The notes below the pieces were generated by a model. It saw only the letters and a program-made list of their open reading frames with translations, made no database searches and was not told the DNA's origin. A DNA stretch of 48,199 bases from a bacterium (lineage in GTDB: Bacteria > Verrucomicrobiota > Verrucomicrobiia > Limisphaerales > J093): contig JAKANS010000020.1 of assembly GCA_021823625.1 (NCBI GenBank), forward strand, positions 1-48,199, given 5' to 3'. Positions 40,266 through 48,199 of this stretch are shown piece after piece (the first letter of the stretch is position 1; every line of letters starts with the position of its first letter). The position numbers were made by a program, and so were the translations under genes.

Positions 40266-40618
40266 GACCTCCGCGTAGGGAAGGGTCACCACACGCGAAT
40301 TGGCGAGTGTAGCTCGCGTTAACGCTGGTCTCACCCGATATGAACCAAGGCGTGCATCCATGCCGGACAGGGTTGCAGGTAGTGGTCTGCGGCGTATTGA
40401 TCTACGCCGGAGTGTCAGGGATCAATTGTCTCCTTGCCTCGGTCGAGGTGGACGGCGCGACGTCTCAAACTGAATCTCGTTTCACCTGCGCTTGCCGGCG
40501 CCTGGCGCTACCCACCTCGCTTCGCGGTCCTGCGCTCGCAGCCTCTCCGGCGCCGTCACCCAGCCTGGGCGAGAAGCGGCGGCGGCTCTATCGCGTCGAT
40601 TTCTCGGATTCTCCGGGC
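40266..40618. other. Mostly non-coding stretch before the fucosidase remnant
   Basis: About 350 bases. A frame opening at 40340 begins MNQGVHPCRTGLQVVVCGVLIY, which looks like a membrane start, but it shows no domain and runs into GC-rich palindromic-looking sequence (40490-40620). It may be the broken 5' end of some gene. I do not call it. Confidence 0.4.
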
Positions 40619-41684
40619 GCCGCGATTTCATTCCCCTGCTCAAACTCAAACCCGGCATCATCCACAACAACCGCCTCGGAGGCGGCTTCCGCGGCGACAC
40701 CGAGACGCCGGAACAGGAAATCCCCGCCACGGGCTTCAAAGGCCGCGATTGGGAAACTTGCATGACGATGAACGACACCTGGGGGTACAAAAGCTACGAC
40801 CACGACTGGAAGCCCACCGAGACGCTGGTGCGCAACTTGGTCGATATCGCCAGCAAAGGCGGCAATTACCTGTTGAACGTCGGCCCAACCAGCGAAGGCT
40901 TGATCCCCGCGCCCTCCATTGAGCGGCTCCAGCAAGTCGGCGCGTGGATGAAGGTGAACGGCGAGGCGACCTGCGCCACCAGCGCCAGTCCGTTCAAAAA
41001 GCTGGCCTGGGAGCGTTGCACGCAAAAGCCGGGCAAGCTCTACCTGCACGTTTTCGACTGGCCCGCGGACGGCCGGCTGCAGGTGCCGCTCGCAAGCGCG
41101 GTCACCAAGGCCTACCTGCTGGCCGACAAATCGAAACAGCTCCAAGTGGAGAGTGCCGCGGATGGCGAAATCGTCAGCCTGCCCAGCGCCTCGCCCACAC
41201 CCTACGCGGGGGTCGTCGTCCTCGATATCGCGGGGGCACCGGAAGTCACCGCGGCAGCGACGACGCGCATCCACCCGGCGGCGGACGGCAGTTTGACGCT
41301 CAAGGCCGAGGACGCCGAACCGATGGGGGGTGCCATCCGGGTGGAGTTGCACGATGGCGTGGGCAACCTCGGCTCCTGGACGGACCCAAAGGATTACGCG
41401 CAATGGTCGGTCACCATCGCCAGGCCGGTGCCTATGAGGTCGTGACCACGTTTGCCTGCGCGCCCGGCGCCGAAGGCAGCCGGCTCGAACTCAGCATTGG
41501 TAACCAATCTTGGACCGGGCCGGAGGTTCCCGCCACGCAAAGCTGGCAGGACTTTGTCACCGAAACCGCGGGAACCATTGAAATCCAGAAGGCCGGTCCG
41601 GCCAACGTGGCTTTGAAAGTCGCGGACATGCCGCGCGGCGCAGTGGTGAACCTCCGCTCCCTCGTTTTACGGCCGCTGAACTGA
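40619..41684 (+). pseudogene. GH29 alpha-L-fucosidase, N-terminally deleted and frameshifted
   Basis: The C-terminal half of a GH29-type exo-fucosidase. Homology starts near LLKLKPGIIHNNRLGGGF and GFKGRDWETCMTMNDTWGY, and the family core segment LVDIASKGGNYLLNVGPTSE is intact. The catalytic nucleophile Asp and the N-terminal barrel strands lie upstream of this point in GH29 and are absent here. The beta-sandwich domain follows, and after WSVTIAR (about 41424) the frame shifts by one base to AGAYEVVTTFACAPGAEG, continuing to LRSLVLRPLN and a stop at 41684. A terminator follows. No complete copy is in the window. Confidence 0.75.
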
Positions 41685-41853: not shown

Positions 41854-42555
41854 ATGAAGGTCCAGTTGAACTTGCAGATGCGGCCGCAGCCGAACGACGA
41901 AACCTGCGGCCCCACCTGCTTGCACGCGCTGTACCGCTATTACGAGGATTCGATCTCCCTCGGTGCGGTGATCCGCCAGGTGCCGCGCCTGGCCAGCGGC
42001 GGCACGTTGGGTGTGATGCTCGCCAACCACGCCCTGCGGCGCGGTTACTGCGCTCGCATCTATTCCTACAACCTCCAGTTGTTCGATCCCACCTGGTTCG
42101 CTCCCGGTGCGCCCGACATTCGGGAGCGGCTCGCCGCCCAGTGCGCGGTCAAGCGCGATGCCAAGCTCACCACCGCCACCGAGGCTTACCTCGAGTTCCT
42201 GACGTTGGGCGGAGAGTTGCGGTTCGAAGACCTGACCAAGGCGTTGATTCGAAAGTACCTCAACCGGCAGCAGCCCATCCTGACCGGCCTCAATGCCACC
42301 TACCTTTACCGGTGTGCGCGCGAGTTCGGGCCGGGTTCCGATTACGACGACGTCCGCGGCGAGCCGCTCGGACACTTCGTCGTGTTGTCCGGCTATGATC
42401 GCAACCAGCGCAGCGTCAGCATCGCAGACCCGCTCCCGTCGAATCCAGCCACGGCCACGCACTACTACGAGGTCACCATGGATCGGCTGATCGGTGCCAT
42501 CCTCCTGGGCATCCTGAGCTACGATGCCAATTTGCTGATCGTCCGGCCAAACTGA
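41854..42555 (+). CDS. C39-like (papain-fold) cysteine peptidase
   Basis: A 233-residue protein with a C39-peptidase-like fold. The candidate catalytic triad is C18 (in DETCGPTCLHALYRYY), H174 (EPLGHFVVLSGYD) and D192 (SIADPLP), with the usual order and spacing. It has no ABC transporter domain or membrane segment and no signal peptide, so it is a free cytoplasmic form, unlike the bacteriocin-exporter C39 domains. It starts an operon: the ATP-grasp gene begins 26 bp after its stop, and the GCS2 gene overlaps that by 4 bp. No precursor peptide is seen in the 107 bp between the terminator and this gene. A role in trimming or transfer within the metabolite pathway is inference. Confidence 0.8.
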   Translation: MKVQLNLQMRPQPNDETCGPTCLHALYRYYEDSISLGAVIRQVPRLASGGTLGVMLANHALRRGYCARIYSYNLQLFDPTWFAPGAPDIRERLAAQCAVKRDAKLTTATEAYLEFLTLGGELRFEDLTKALIRKYLNRQQPILTGLNATYLYRCAREFGPGSDYDDVRGEPLGHFVVLSGYDRNQRSVSIADPLPSNPATATHYYEVTMDRLIGAILLGILSYDANLLIVRPN

Positions 42556-42581
42556 GCCGGGTGTCCCCGCCGCTTTTTCGT

Positions 42582-44048
42582 ATGCGTATTCTGATTGTGG
42601 TTAACAATCCCCAGGAGTGGCCGCTCGAAGTACCCGGCGTCGAGGTGGTGGCCGCCCGTTCGTACCTGGTCGATCCGATCTTTGCGGACCTCGACCGGGC
42701 GAAGGTGTTCAACTTTTGCCGGTCCTACCGCTACCAGAGCATCGGCTATTACGTTTCCCTGCTGGCGGCGGCGCGCGGCCACAAGCCGATCCCTGACATC
42801 GCCACCATTCAGGACATGAAGTCGCAGACGGTCGTGCGCCTGATGTCCGACGAACTGGAAGAACTGATCCAGGAAAGCCTGGCCGGCATCCGCTCGAACC
42901 GTTTTACGCTCAGCATCTACTTCGGACGCAATCTGGCCGACCGGTACGACCGCCTCAGCGCCGCGCTTTTCAAATTGTTCCAGGCGCCCTTCGTCCGCGC
43001 GGAATTCGTGCGCACCGACAAATGGGACCTGCAAGGCATCGGCCCGATCTCCGCCCGCGACATTCCGGATTCGCACCACGGTTTCGCGGTCGAGGCGGCC
43101 TCCCAATACCTTGCCGGGCGCGGGCCGTCCACGCGACCGCGCGTGATCGAGCGCTACGACATGGCCATCCTGTCCGATCCGCAGGCCAAGGACCTGACTT
43201 CCGATCAGGCGGCGATCGACAAGTTCATCAAGGCTGCCGCCGGTCTGGGCATCCACGCCGAGGTGATCGACAAGGAGGGTTTCGCCCGCGTGGCCGAGTT
43301 CGACGCCTTGTTCATCCGCGAGACGACGAGCGTGAACCACCACACTTATCGGTTCTCGCGCCGCGCCGTGGCCGAGGGGCTGGTCGTCGTGGACGATCCC
43401 GACTCGATCTTGAAATGCAGCAACAAGGTCTATCTGGCGGAGTTGCTCGACCGGCGGCAGATTTTGACCCCAAAGACTTTGATCGTACACCGCGACAACG
43501 TCGATGAGATCGTGCCGCAACTCGGCCTGCCGTGCATTCTGAAGCAACCGGACAGCGCCTTCTCCCAAGGCGTGGTCAAGGCCGACACGGTCGAGGAAGT
43601 GAGACAAGGCGCCGAGGAGATGTTGGAACGCTCCGATCTGGTCATCGCTCAGGAGTTTCTCCCCACGCCTTTCGATTGGCGCATCGGCATCTTCGACCGC
43701 AAGCCCCTTTACGCCTGCCAGTATTTCATGGCCGGCAAACACTGGCAGATCATCAACCACGAAGGCGACGAAAACTCGCGCTTCGGTCGGGTGAAAACGC
43801 TGCCCGTGGAACTTGCGCCCAGCCGCGTCGTGCGCGCCGCTCTCAAGGCCGCCAACCTCATCGGCGACGGTCTCTATGGCGTGGACCTCAAGCAAGTCGG
43901 CCAGAAATGCTATGTCATCGAAGTGAACGACAATCCCACGATCCAATCCACCTTCGAGGACGCGGTGATGAAGGACTCCCTGTACGAGCGCATCATGGAG
44001 GTCTTTTTGCAGCGGCTGGAACGGCGTCGGCAAGGCCTGCCCGAATGA
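42582..44048 (+). CDS. RimK-like ATP-grasp ligase with N-terminal RLAN domain
   Basis: A 488-residue ATP-grasp enzyme that joins a carboxylate to an amine using ATP. The start MRILIVVNNPQEWPLEVPGVEV and SYLVDPIFADLDRAKVFNFC resemble the RLAN domain, found before RimK-type ATP-grasp domains. The ATP-grasp part includes CILKQPDSAFSQGVVKA, QEFLPTPFDWRIGIFD, and GVDLKQVGQKCYVIEVNDNP; its E/N residues bind Mg-ATP. The ATG at 42582 is preferred over a GTG at 42561 because the family starts there. It overlaps the GCS2 gene by 4 bases (ATGA), a sign of coupled translation. Confidence 0.85.
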   Translation: MRILIVVNNPQEWPLEVPGVEVVAARSYLVDPIFADLDRAKVFNFCRSYRYQSIGYYVSLLAAARGHKPIPDIATIQDMKSQTVVRLMSDELEELIQESLAGIRSNRFTLSIYFGRNLADRYDRLSAALFKLFQAPFVRAEFVRTDKWDLQGIGPISARDIPDSHHGFAVEAASQYLAGRGPSTRPRVIERYDMAILSDPQAKDLTSDQAAIDKFIKAAAGLGIHAEVIDKEGFARVAEFDALFIRETTSVNHHTYRFSRRAVAEGLVVVDDPDSILKCSNKVYLAELLDRRQILTPKTLIVHRDNVDEIVPQLGLPCILKQPDSAFSQGVVKADTVEEVRQGAEEMLERSDLVIAQEFLPTPFDWRIGIFDRKPLYACQYFMAGKHWQIINHEGDENSRFGRVKTLPVELAPSRVVRAALKAANLIGDGLYGVDLKQVGQKCYVIEVNDNPTIQSTFEDAVMKDSLYERIMEVFLQRLERRRQGLPE

Positions 44049-45292
44049 GCGCCGCGCCCGCCCGCCTGTCGCTGTTTACCGGCACCGGCGTCGAACTCGA
44101 GTACATGATCGTCGATGCCGCGACGCTCGCCGTTCGGCCGATCAGCGACGAATTGATCCGCGCGGTGACGGGCGCCTACCAGTCCGATGTCGAGCGCGGC
44201 GAGTTTTGCTGGTCGAACGAGCTCGTGCTGCACGTCATCGAGTTGAAAACCAACGGACCGGCGAAATCGCTCGGCCACCTGGCACGCGGTTTTCAAGCCG
44301 AAGTCAACGAGGTCAACCGCCGGCTGGCGTCCTTGGGCGCGCGACTCATGCCCACGGCGATGCACCCGTGGATGGATCCGCACGCGGAAACGCGTCTCTG
44401 GCCGCACGAATACAGCGCGGTCTATGAAGCCTACAACCGCATCTTCGGCTGCCAGGGCCACGGGTGGTCGAACCTCCAGAGCCTGCACCTGAATCTGCCT
44501 TTCGCGAACGACGCCGAGTTCGCCGCCCTGCACGCCGCCATCCGCGCGCTCCTGCCGATCCTGCCCGCGCTCGCCGCCAGTTCCCCGGTGATGGACGCGC
44601 GGACCACCGGCTGGCTGGACAACCGCCTCGCCGTTTATCGCACCAACTCGGCCAAGATCCCGTCGCTGACCGGACGCGTGATTCCGGAGCCGGTTTTTTC
44701 CGAGGCCGATTACCACCGCGAAATCTTCCAGCGCATCTACCGCGACATTGCCCCGCACGACCCCGACGGCGTGTTGCAGGACGAGTTTCTGAACTCGCGT
44801 GGCGCCATCGCCCGGTTCGGCCGCGGCAGCATCGAGATTCGCGTGCTCGACGTTCAAGAGTGCCCGCAGGCGGACCTCGCGATCACGGAGTTGATCGTCG
44901 AAACCTTGCGCGCGCTGGCGGCCGAACGCTGGCAAAGCCTGGAGTGTTTGCGGTCACGGGACACGGAGCGTCTCGAAACGATCTTCCTCGCGACCGCCAA
45001 GGATGGCGAAGCCGCGACCATCGGCGATCCTGACTATTTGAAAATCTTCGGCTGGCAGCGCGGCGCCTCCTGCACGGCCACGGACCTGTGGCGGTGGATT
45101 GCGGCGGAACTGGAGATGCGGTCGCGGCTGGCCCCGGACGCGGTTTGCGCTTTGGACCTCATTTTCGAGCGCGGTACGCTGGCGCGCCGGATTTTGCGTC
45201 GTCTGGGAGGCGATTGTTCCCGCGCACGCTTACAGGAAACCTACGGCCGGCTCTGCGATTGCCTCGCTTCGGGCCAGCAGTTCAAAGGCTGA
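44045..45292 (+). CDS. GCS2-type glutamate-cysteine ligase family carboxylate-amine ligase
   Basis: A 415-residue enzyme of the GCS2 family, glutamine-synthetase-like ligases that form amide bonds between glutamate (or similar) and an amine such as cysteine. The N-terminus has the Mg-binding GTGVELEYMIVD (residues 13-24), then ELVLHVIELKTNGP, and the middle has NLQSLHLNLPF, the His-containing strand of the family. The ending GAIARFGRGSIEIRVLDVQE is conserved, with a Glu/Arg active-site segment. It is shorter than the classical gamma-glutamylcysteine synthetases and closer to the YbdK-like and metabolite amidoligases. It is the last gene of the operon, 21 bp from convergent mqnC. Its real substrate is unknown. 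Confidence 0.85.
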   Translation: MSAAPARLSLFTGTGVELEYMIVDAATLAVRPISDELIRAVTGAYQSDVERGEFCWSNELVLHVIELKTNGPAKSLGHLARGFQAEVNEVNRRLASLGARLMPTAMHPWMDPHAETRLWPHEYSAVYEAYNRIFGCQGHGWSNLQSLHLNLPFANDAEFAALHAAIRALLPILPALAASSPVMDARTTGWLDNRLAVYRTNSAKIPSLTGRVIPEPVFSEADYHREIFQRIYRDIAPHDPDGVLQDEFLNSRGAIARFGRGSIEIRVLDVQECPQADLAITELIVETLRALAAERWQSLECLRSRDTERLETIFLATAKDGEAATIGDPDYLKIFGWQRGASCTATDLWRWIAAELEMRSRLAPDAVCALDLIFERGTLARRILRRLGGDCSRARLQETYGRLCDCLASGQQFKG

Positions 45293-45313: not shown

Positions 45314-46405
45314 TCAGTTCAACAGGCGATACCAGTTGTCGCGCTGGTGCGGTTCGTAACCGAGGTCGTGGATCAGCCGGTGCATGTCGGCCACGGTCAT
45401 GCGGAAAGTCGCGCCTGCCTGGCTGACCACGTTTTCCTCGATCATGATGCTCCCGAGGTCGTTCGCCCCGAACTTCAACGCCACCTGGCCGATGGCCGGG
45501 CCTTGGGTCACCCACGAACTTTGGACGTTGGCAAAGTTGTCCAGGTAAATGCGAGCCAGCGCCTGCGTGCGCAGATACTCGTGCGCGCCAACGGTCGGAG
45601 CCTTGAGCTTGGTGTTCTCAGCCTGAAACGTCCACGCGATGAACGCGGTGAAACCGCCGGATTTCTCCTGTTGTTGGCGCAGCCGCTCCAGGTGCTCGAT
45701 GCGGTCCTCCACGGTCTCGACATGGCCAAACATCATCGTGGCGCTGGACTTCAAGCCCAGCCGGTGCGCCACGTCCATGACCTCCAGCCATTCGTCGCTG
45801 GTCGCCTTTAACGGCGACACCCGCTGCCGGACGCGGTCCACCAGAATCTCGCCGCCACCGCCGGGGATCGACCCCAGGCCTGCTGCCATGAAATCGCGGA
45901 TGATTCGCTCCAGCGGCTCGCCGAACACGTCGCGGAAATGGATGAATTCGCTGGGGCTGAAGCCGTGGATGTTCACCGTCGGGAACTTCGCCTTCATGTG
46001 GCTGAGCAGATCCAGATACCACTGCTTGGTCAATTTCGGATGGTGCCCGCCTTGCAGCAAAATCTGCGTGCCGCCCAACGCCACGGTCTCCTCGATCTTC
46101 CGATCCATCTCGTCGTGGGAGATCACGTAGGCGTCGTCGTCGCCCTCCACGCGGTAGAACGCGCAGAACTTGCAATAGACGTTGCAGACGTTTGTGTAGT
46201 TGACGTTCCGGTCCACGATATAGGTCACCACCTCTTTGCCGCGGCCGTCGTAAGCCTGGGCCTTGGCCAGTTGACGGCGGCGGTCGGCGAGCGCGCCGAG
46301 ATCCTCCAGCGGCAGCCGGTAAAGCCGCAGCGCCTCCGCGCGGTCGATCCGCTGGCCGTCCCACACTTTCTGCAACAAATCGTCAAGCGACGCGTCGTAA
46401 ACCAT
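45314..46405 (-). CDS. mqnC: Cyclic dehypoxanthinyl futalosine synthase (radical SAM)
   Basis: MqnC, 363 residues, the radical SAM enzyme that cyclises dehypoxanthine futalosine in the futalosine route to menaquinone. The 4Fe-4S motif is C74-x3-C78-x2-C81 in NVCNVYCKFCAFYR. The family segments GGTQILLQGGHHPKL, FSPSEFIHF, GLGSIPGGGGEILVDRVR and SSATMMFGHVET are all present. The length and the C-terminal HDLGYEPHQRD with W are those of MqnC, not MqnE. The other pathway genes are not in the window. It is a minus-strand gene next to the TSUP remnant. Confidence 0.93.
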   Translation of the reverse strand: MVYDASLDDLLQKVWDGQRIDRAEALRLYRLPLEDLGALADRRRQLAKAQAYDGRGKEVVTYIVDRNVNYTNVCNVYCKFCAFYRVEGDDDAYVISHDEMDRKIEETVALGGTQILLQGGHHPKLTKQWYLDLLSHMKAKFPTVNIHGFSPSEFIHFRDVFGEPLERIIRDFMAAGLGSIPGGGGEILVDRVRQRVSPLKATSDEWLEVMDVAHRLGLKSSATMMFGHVETVEDRIEHLERLRQQQEKSGGFTAFIAWTFQAENTKLKAPTVGAHEYLRTQALARIYLDNFANVQSSWVTQGPAIGQVALKFGANDLGSIMIEENVVSQAGATFRMTVADMHRLIHDLGYEPHQRDNWYRLLN

Positions 46406-47162: not shown

Positions 47163-48199
47163 ATGCCGTGGAAAATCACTTCGCTGTTCCGAGTCCGCCA
47201 GCGCTTGGTCGAAGCCGCGCTGGCTCGCCGAAAACCCTTGGAAGAGGGGGGTCAGAGTTTTGGCATCAGCCGCCAGACCGCCTACCAGTGGCTGACTCGC
47301 TATCGCGCCCAAGGTCGAGCGGGGCTGGCGGATCGTTCGCGGCGGCCCCACCCCTCGCCCCAGCGCTTGGCCCCTCACGGGATCCGCGCGATCGCGCACT
47401 GGCGCCGCTGGCGACCGCATTGGGGCGCCAAGAAGATCCACTGCCAGCTTCGCCGTCAGCAGCCTCGGGCGCGAGTCCCTTGCGTGCGGACCATCCACCG
47501 CCGGTTGCACCGCCGCGGCTATGTGCGGCCCCGGCCGCGTCGGGCTCGCCGGGGACCGGCGCTGCCGTATCCGGGGCCGACCCAGCCCACCCGTCCCAAC
47601 CAAGTCTGGACGGTGGATTTCAAGGGTTGGTTCCGGACCGCCGACGGGCAGCGGCAGGAACCGCCGACGGTGCGCGATCTCTACAGTCGTTACGGCTTGC
47701 GCGGGCAGCTGCTGCCCAATCAGGACGATCGGCCCGTGCGCCGCTCGATGCGGCGGCTCTTTCGGGCGCGTGGATTGCCCGAAATCATTCGGGGGGACAA
47801 CGGTTCGCCCTTTGCCGGCACCGGCGCGCTGGGGCTTTCCCGACTCGCGGGGGGGTGGTTGCGCCTGGGCATTCGCGTCGAGTTCCCCCGCCCAGCGCGG
47901 CCGGGCGACAACGCGGCGCCCGAGCAGTTTCACGGCTGCTATCAGCGCGAAGTGGTGGCCGCCGGCGCGGCGGATCGGCCGGCCATGCAGCGCCGGTCCA
48001 ATCGCTGGGGGCGCCACGACAACCAGGAGCGTCCGCCCGAAAGTCTGGGGCAAGCGCCGCCGGCGGGCGGCTATCGCGCCAGCCGCCGAGTCTATCGATC
48101 GGGCTTGTCGCCTTGGTGCTCTCCCAAGCCCTGGGTGGCGCGACGGGGGCGCAATCGCGGGCACATCAAATGGCCGGGACGCTTGCGCTTCGTCGGCCG
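47163..48199 (+). CDS. IS481-family transposase, partial at window edge
   Basis: An open frame of 345 codons from ATG at 47163 with no stop before the edge. It has an N-terminal helix-turn-helix (GISRQTAYQWLTRYRAQG, about residues 33-50, and DRSRRPHPSP). The integrase core follows with D152 in VWTVDFKGWF, D212 in IIRGDNGSPFAG and E254 in NAAPEQFHGCY, the DDE triad. The VDFKGWF segment and the order are typical of the IS481 family. The first 14 codons are repeated in the copy at 1-42. It appears intact as far as it goes; the stop is outside the window. Confidence 0.88.
   Translation, partial: MPWKITSLFRVRQRLVEAALARRKPLEEGGQSFGISRQTAYQWLTRYRAQGRAGLADRSRRPHPSPQRLAPHGIRAIAHWRRWRPHWGAKKIHCQLRRQQPRARVPCVRTIHRRLHRRGYVRPRPRRARRGPALPYPGPTQPTRPNQVWTVDFKGWFRTADGQRQEPPTVRDLYSRYGLRGQLLPNQDDRPVRRSMRRLFRARGLPEIIRGDNGSPFAGTGALGLSRLAGGWLRLGIRVEFPRPARPGDNAAPEQFHGCYQREVVAAGAADRPAMQRRSNRWGRHDNQERPPESLGQAPPAGGYRASRRVYRSGLSPWCSPKPWVARRGRNRGHIKWPGRLRFVG

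Follow-up and report, generated by a model that had tools for sequence, protein, structure and literature searches.

The window analysed here, a 48,199-nucleotide stretch of a Verrucomicrobiota genome (contig JAKANS010000020.1, assembly GCA_021823625.1), carries three consecutive genes that encode a C39-like cysteine enzyme, an ATP-grasp ligase headed by an RLAN domain, and a carboxylate-amine ligase of the GCS2 family (Table 1). An earlier note, drawn up by a model without database searches, had described them as an operon for a small amide or peptide-like metabolite. When the sequence was re-read, the coordinates and strand it had given proved correct, as did a gap of 26 bp between the C39 stop and the ATG of the RLAN ligase and an overlap of 4 bp between the RLAN-ligase and GCS2 genes. 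An overlap of this kind is expected for translationally coupled genes. The RLAN frame holds a further possible start upstream (GTG at 42561); of the two, the ATG at 42582 is favoured, since homology begins just past it.

Table 1. Coordinates of the three-gene operon and its domains in the window.
Feature	Position	Strand	Size and evidence
C39-like papain-fold cysteine enzyme	41854..42555	+	233 aa; PF13529 and PF03412 matches, AlphaFold2 (AF2) model, Foldseek
RLAN + RimK-type ATP-grasp carboxylate-amine ligase	42582..44048	+	488 aa; PF14401 and PF08443 matches, AF2 model, Foldseek
RLAN domain, aa 25-171 of the ligase, ahead of the RimK-like core	42654..43094	+	PF14401 match
RimK-like ATP-grasp domain	43419..43949	+	PF08443 match; R367 and N449 invariant
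GCS2-family carboxylate-amine ligase, unassigned subfamily	44045..45292	+	415 aa; PF04107 match, GhExE motif
ATGA overlap, RLAN-ligase stop/GCS2 start	44045..44048	+	read from sequence

The C39-like protein matches PF13529 (Peptidase_C39_2) at 37.6 bits (curated cut-off 24) and PF03412 at 22.2 (cut-off 22). Its triad, C18/H174/D192, and Q12, which we take to be the usual oxyanion-hole position, show no variation across 68 homologues. The AlphaFold2 model (pLDDT 94.5) retrieves C39 peptidases at the top of a Foldseek search (3erv, E 3.7e-6; PCAT1; ComA), with acyl-enzyme structures of the phytochelatin synthase Alr0975 also among the fold matches, at rank 23. The phytochelatin synthase profile PF05023 (family C83) does not appear among its Pfam matches up to E 10. 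By fold, Cys-His-Asp triad and profile, the protein is a C39 papain-fold enzyme. It does not behave as an exporter leader peptidase, being a free-standing protein of 233 aa accompanied by no conserved transporter or double-glycine precursor. No signal peptide is visible and the enzyme is predicted to be cytosolic, where it probably cuts amide bonds.

The second protein combines a match to RLAN (PF14401, 155.3 bits, cut-off 25) with one to RimK (PF08443, 35.1 bits, cut-off 21). It stays under both equivalog models for the RimK S6-glutamate ligase (NF007764, 20.3 against a cut-off of 331 bits; TIGR00768, 55.7 against 143.4), and these scores together with the extra RLAN domain place it outside the RimK equivalog. 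Its AlphaFold2 model (pLDDT 90.9, from an alignment that left out plasmid-record sequences) matches RimK, LysX, ArgX and Ddl over approximately 300 columns, with TMt of about 0.7-0.8, and of 0.74-0.82 for RimK, ArgX and LysX. The RLAN domain falls outside these matches because the matched proteins are only about 280-315 residues long. The graspetide ligase PsnB is also among the fold matches of the ATP-grasp. By its fold and its invariant ATP, Mg and carboxylate residues, the protein is a ligase of the RimK/LysX/ArgX type. In Pseudomonas aeruginosa RimK, the contacts to the glutamate chain include R64, R189 and N262 (PMC10092738); these align with R246, R367 and N449 of the window ligase, all three invariant in the 68 homologues. 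This correspondence weakly suggests glutamate and, by analogy, glutamate or a glutamate-like amine may be the incoming substrate. Up to E 1, the ligase has no match to TIGR03103, the model for the GNAT-ATP-grasp synthetase of N-acetylglutaminylglutamine amide (NAGGN), and a profile search of the window genome detected no other RimK-type ligase.

For the third protein, the match to PF04107 (119 bits, cut-off 21) is joined by the sequence GVELE, which corresponds to the GhExE signature of glutamine-synthetase-fold ligases (PMC2588565) and whose G15, E17 and E19 are invariant in 66 homologues. It is thus a member of the PF04107 carboxylate-amine ligases, and all three domain calls of the earlier note, as well as the active-site residues it had judged intact, stand. 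Within GCS2, the protein scores under the subfamily cut-offs of YbdK (TIGR02050, 61 against 176.4 bits), EgtA (23.5 against 370.8) and gshA_cyano (25.6 against 249). More generally, no NCBIfam equivalog was found for any of the three operon proteins, every match lying far under its cut-off. Profile searches of the window genome detected no other GCS2 gene, nor any glutathione synthetase (PF02955); in 9 of 14 control genomes the latter search did give a match.

To place the operon, we surveyed gene neighbourhoods in 388 genomes of the same phylum, 46 of which carry RLAN, counting as strong the matches above 500 bits for the GCS2 subfamily profile, 300 bits for C39 and 240 bits for the fourth gene introduced below. 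All 13 full-length or nearly full-length GCS2 matches adjoin RLAN and C39, and the weaker ones are fragments or distant GCS2s. Strong C39 matches number 15, of which 14 adjoin RLAN: the 15 comprise the same 13 genomes, one further genome in which C39 lies beside RLAN (G214), and one in which it lies on a contig apart from RLAN (G072). GCS2 and RLAN co-occur at the genome level with a Fisher p of 1.7e-13, a value that ignores relatedness. Among the 80 named genomes closest to the window ligase, a sample biased towards that ligase, 62 have the complete operon in the same order and three more stop at a contig edge. The linkage that the earlier note had expected in other genomes is therefore real and far beyond chance, and none of the outcomes by which the note was to be refuted came about. 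Going by record titles and tree taxonomy lines, the complete operon occurs in at least 13 phyla: Verrucomicrobiota, Planctomycetota, Bacteroidota, Balneolota, Ignavibacteriota, Pseudomonadota, Thermodesulfobacteriota, Myxococcota, Nitrospirota, Spirochaetota, Omnitrophota, Tectimicrobiota and Sumerlaeota; it is also present in a Vicinamibacteraceae bacterium. Pontibacter, Marivirga, Thiobacillus thioparus and Blastopirellula marina are among its bearers. The closest relative of the window locus, at 85% identity, comes from a Verrucomicrobia subdivision 3 genome (L100).

The note had also reported neither precursor peptide nor exporter in this copy, and this extends to the 80 loci. The 393 small open reading frames (ORFs) flanking these operons contain no recurrent small peptide save close-relative and low-complexity matches, and their neighbour clusters include no conserved exporter, regulator or LysW-like carrier. 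Apart from the two kinds of partner described next, recurrent neighbour clusters are scattered or lineage-bound. In one genome of the window's genus (G003) the operon is broken (L051): RLAN and GCS2 fall apart into several frames and contain an internal stop, whereas C39 is intact.

A fourth partner lies after GCS2 on the same strand in 33 loci and resembles N-formylglutamate amidohydrolase (FGase; PF05013, 72.9 bits, cut-off 28.9), whose homologues act on N-acyl-glutamate. The FGase profile gives eight strong matches in the 388 genomes, seven of them within operon genomes (Fisher p = 5e-11, uncorrected for relatedness). FGase is found away from the operon in G001, G003, G043 and G095. The first two belong to the window's genus, and in both the gene sits directly behind a second C39 copy, with no ligases (L193:7044-8680 and L194:8215-9803). 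These standalone pairs suggest that the two hydrolases, C39 and FGase, act as one pair and the two ligases, RLAN and GCS2, as another. By eye, the intact C39-FGase pair of L194 is followed by a polyphosphate-kinase-2-like gene.

RLAN ligases also occur in a second context, in which an acetyltransferase of the GNAT family takes the place of GCS2. Here, the ligase stands beside a GNAT of approximately 160 aa or beside a fusion of a GNAT with a C39-like domain (DUF3335, PF11814, 280.9 bits); in a third form, the ligase itself is fused to a GNAT-like region (L087, L090). A comparison by hhalign shows the window C39 to be homologous to the DUF3335 domains (probability 95.7%, E 9e-9), their Cys and His-Asp regions being in register. 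The ligase phylogeny, a maximum-likelihood tree of 69 sequences whose bootstrap is not fully settled, nests one GNAT-context clade (support 100/99) in a clade with GCS2-context members (95/89), apart from the other GNAT-context ligases, so the two contexts have switched at least twice. The nearest relative of these GNATs is RimI, a protein acetyltransferase, and TIGR03103 matches one such locus (L042) weakly and by the GNAT part alone (36 against 569 bits). The earlier note was right that the window copy has no adjacent acetyltransferase, but it missed both the FGase gene and the GNAT and GNAT-C39 context. In one related group of loci (L068, L070, L176, L066), the GNAT-RLAN pair has argG nearby, is immediately followed by lysA and dapA, or both (genes named by eye), which may point to the metabolism of arginine or of lysine/diaminopimelate as the origin of substrates.

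We propose, with a probability of about one half, that the three genes specify a cytosolic route to a small capped peptide, laid out like glutathione synthesis and equipped with its own turnover enzymes. The carboxylate that GCS2 activates would be, on the precedent of its family, the gamma-carboxyl of glutamate; its coupling to the amine of an amino acid would give a gamma-glutamyl-capped amino acid. The RLAN ligase would then phosphorylate a carboxylate of this dipeptide and add a further amino acid through one amide bond; on the precedent of RimK, LysX and ArgX, this would be glutamate or a glutamate-like amine, and the RLAN domain may help to bind the acceptor. The C39-like enzyme, forming a Cys-acyl intermediate like that of phytochelatin synthase, would hydrolyse or transfer the acyl part of the product, and in many species the FGase-like hydrolase would cleave a second amide of the acyl-glutamate type. 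The gene set would thus comprise two enzymes that make bonds and one or two that break them. At other RLAN loci, the GNAT would supply an acetyl cap where the gamma-glutamyl cap would otherwise stand. The gene content, intact active-site residues, folds, linkage, co-occurrence and the FGase and GNAT contexts are observed; the substrates, the order of steps, the product and the direction in which C39 and FGase act (trimming, recycling or transfer) are what we infer. The reading of the earlier note, in which a small amide or peptide-like metabolite would be made and then trimmed or transferred, is still the best one for this putative chemistry.

It is mainly the swap of GNAT and GCS2 around one ligase family that leads us to a capped small peptide: both acylate an amine, one with an acetyl and the other, by family precedent, with a gamma-glutamyl group. 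Further grounds are the intact families and active sites, the near-obligate linkage, the FGase and GNAT contexts, the latter with its own homologous C39-like domain, the window genome's lack of glutathione synthetase, other GCS2 and RimK, the correspondence with the glutamate residues of RimK, and the presence of phytochelatin synthase acyl-enzyme structures in the C39 fold search. Several points weigh against this proposal. Nothing gives it substrate-specific support. The distance of GCS2 from the YbdK, EgtA and gshA cut-offs makes a donor other than glutamate possible, and R367 and N449 do not prove glutamate, since their RimK equivalents, R189 and N262, may be positions general to ATP-grasps. 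For the C39-like enzyme, phytochelatin synthase is a structural match of middling rank, behind C39 proper. A profile search found no FGase in the window genome, so this enzyme would be non-essential, although the absence is uncertain because the genome is 91% complete. None of these partners adjoins 22 of 135 RLAN ligases; RLAN chemistry is therefore not always in need of a nearby GCS2 or C39. Finally, the operon occurs in Nitrosomonas and Thiobacillus, genera that produce glutathione, and consequently it is not simply a replacement for glutathione.

A wider claim can be made more tentatively, and we consider it possible though somewhat doubtful: that a hitherto unrecognised family of peptides, gamma-glutamyl-capped where GCS2 is present and acetyl-capped where GNAT is, is built by the ligases of a single RLAN family and broken down by dedicated C39 and FGase hydrolases in at least 13 phyla. 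In bacteria without glutathione synthetase, such peptides may serve as thiols, osmolytes or metal-binding compounds.

Among the alternatives, a role in tagging seems unlikely. Here the RLAN ligase and GCS2 would decorate a protein or peptide with amino acids or gamma-glutamyl groups, which C39 and FGase would remove. The ATP-grasp core is RimK-like, and RimK acts on a protein, adding amino acids to ribosomal S6 (PMC10092738) under regulation by its partner protease RimB (PMC11957791, PMC12239564). The operon shares with that system a RimK-type ATP-grasp beside a protease and the conserved glutamate-contact residues (PMC10092738, PMC11957791). The C39 fold is a protease fold, and the kinship of the alternative-context GNATs with RimI points the same way. 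However, the operon differs from RimK/RimB in its RLAN domain, its GCS2 partner, a papain-fold rather than retropepsin protease and a RimK score of 20.3 against 331 bits. The other tagging system with a glutamine-synthetase-fold, GhExE-bearing ligase is PafA/Dop/Pup (PMC2588565); the window ligase is of the GCS2 subfamily, not PafA, and has no Pup-like small ORF nearby. We rejected membership in pupylation, as no small ORF recurs beside the ligase in the 80 loci, and the same lack of a conserved tag ORF speaks against tagging in general. The N-acyl-glutamate targets of FGase homologues also argue against it. GCS2 enzymes of known activity, moreover, join small molecules. A similar argument has been made for GCS-like families without a Pup-like ORF (PMC2588565). 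In the case of a strict analogue of glutathione, which we regard as distinctly unlikely, the dipeptide made by GCS2 would be gamma-glutamyl-cysteine or another thiol of this kind, a third residue would be added by the RLAN ligase, and C39 would act on the thiol product like phytochelatin synthase, as a hydrolase or transpeptidase. The logic is indeed the same, with a glutamine-synthetase-fold GCS-type ligase and an ATP-grasp ligase whose product is handled by a papain-fold Cys enzyme, and both the Alr0975 fold matches and the genome's lack of glutathione synthetase and other GCS2 genes suit it. However, nothing points to cysteine as a substrate, the GNAT version has no gamma-glutamyl step, and glutathione-making genera carry the operon too. 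The parts also differ: the ATP-grasp is of the RLAN-RimK type, not GSH-S_ATP, GCS2 fits neither the gshA nor the EgtA model, the C39-like enzyme is nearer to C39 peptidases than to C83, and an FGase-like gene is often added.

That the operon is mainly degradative, with GCS2 running in reverse or as a deamidase (like Dop in the PafA family) alongside C39 and FGase to break down an amide compound, we hold to be very unlikely. Hydrolases make up two of the four linked enzymes, and the C39-FGase pairs of G001 and G003 stand without ligases, but two ATP-dependent ligases are improbable in a purely degradative operon, the GhExE metal-site residues of GCS2 are invariant, and the exchange of GCS2 for GNAT suits acylation better than hydrolysis. 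Most improbable of all is a pathway to a ribosomally synthesized and post-translationally modified peptide (RiPP), in which C39 would remove a leader and the ligases would cross-link or extend a ribosomal precursor in the manner of graspetides. Exporter C39 peptidases do cut leaders, and PsnB is among the fold matches; even so, this explanation is already largely excluded by the 80 loci, which have neither a conserved precursor ORF nor a conserved exporter, by a free-standing C39 with no transporter fusion, and by two ligases that are not of the graspetide type. Membership in RiPP or graspetide clusters was accordingly rejected. Two known systems remain for comparison with the proposed capped-peptide pathway. 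The NAGGN trio consists of a GNAT-ATP-grasp synthetase, marked by TIGR03103, an amidotransferase and an M42 peptidase. Like the operon, it unites an N-capping enzyme, an ATP-grasp ligase and a dedicated peptidase, and some RLAN ligases are GNAT-fused as well (L087, L090). Unlike it, the operon has no TIGR03103 match in its ligase, no asparagine-synthetase-like gene, a different peptidase, and GCS2 for GNAT. With no glutathione synthetase, PF05023 or TIGR03103 match, the operon belongs neither to glutathione/phytochelatin synthesis nor to the NAGGN system. The GNAT-DUF3335 clusters draw on the same family of RLAN ligases and include a C39-like domain homologous to that of the operon, but have an acetyltransferase where the operon has GCS2, and their C39 is fused rather than free.

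The earlier note had mentioned that RLAN-type ligase clusters were known from comparative genomics, and this agrees with the literature: PMC10318531, citing Iyer et al. 2009, discusses GNAT-DUF3335 fusions, so the idea of amidoligase-peptidase clusters is not new. We found no published description of the C39-RLAN-GCS2 operon in the literature searched, which did not cover Iyer et al. 2009, and no functional assignment for RLAN (PF14401) or for the C39-like or FGase-like subfamilies in the libraries searched. The window copy is an unexceptional example of a pathway that is widespread but uncharacterised and whose RLAN domain is already a named Pfam family; the FGase partner and the GNAT/GCS2 swap are the additions that make this pathway testable. 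If the proposal is correct, metabolic maps lack a bacterial small molecule of wide distribution, whose genes are now defined: those for a pair of ligases, for one or two hydrolases and for a capping enzyme that can be exchanged. RLAN and the C39-like and FGase-like subfamilies would then gain a function as well. The gene set is small enough for an in vitro test from four purified proteins.

Relatives of the ligase were also sought in viral contigs. A single-protein query with the window ligase gave no match there, and an alignment query returned eight loci, in most of which the relative has no RLAN domain and in several of which it lies beside a GNAT. Among them, putative viral contigs from IMG/VR (L180-L184 and L186) encode RimK-type ATP-grasps without RLAN, 34-39% identical to the window ligase, and in L182, L183, L184 and L186 a small GNAT precedes the ATP-grasp. 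The GNAT-ligase pair may therefore also be phage-borne. None of the eight loci carries C39 and GCS2, and a viral origin of the operon was rejected. On the Pseudomonas aeruginosa plasmid pZYPA1927 (L041), a stand-alone RLAN ligase lies beside pagP and an SDR gene, with genes for a glutamate/aspartate transporter, a gamma-glutamyltransferase and an asparaginase nearby.

Within the window, the upstream plus-strand frame at 40492-41445 is unrelated to the operon. Its match to the alpha-L-fucosidase model PF01120 is confined to the C-terminal part, positions 237-345, and since the frame is also cut short upstream, it looks like a gene remnant. At the contig end, an open plus-strand frame (47163-48197) is by eye partly similar to transposases of the helix-turn-helix/integrase type and may be frameshifted. 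Downstream, the operon is bounded by a convergent CofH/MqnC-like radical-SAM gene on the minus strand (45314-46405; PF19288, PF04055), which probably functions in menaquinone synthesis by the futalosine pathway.

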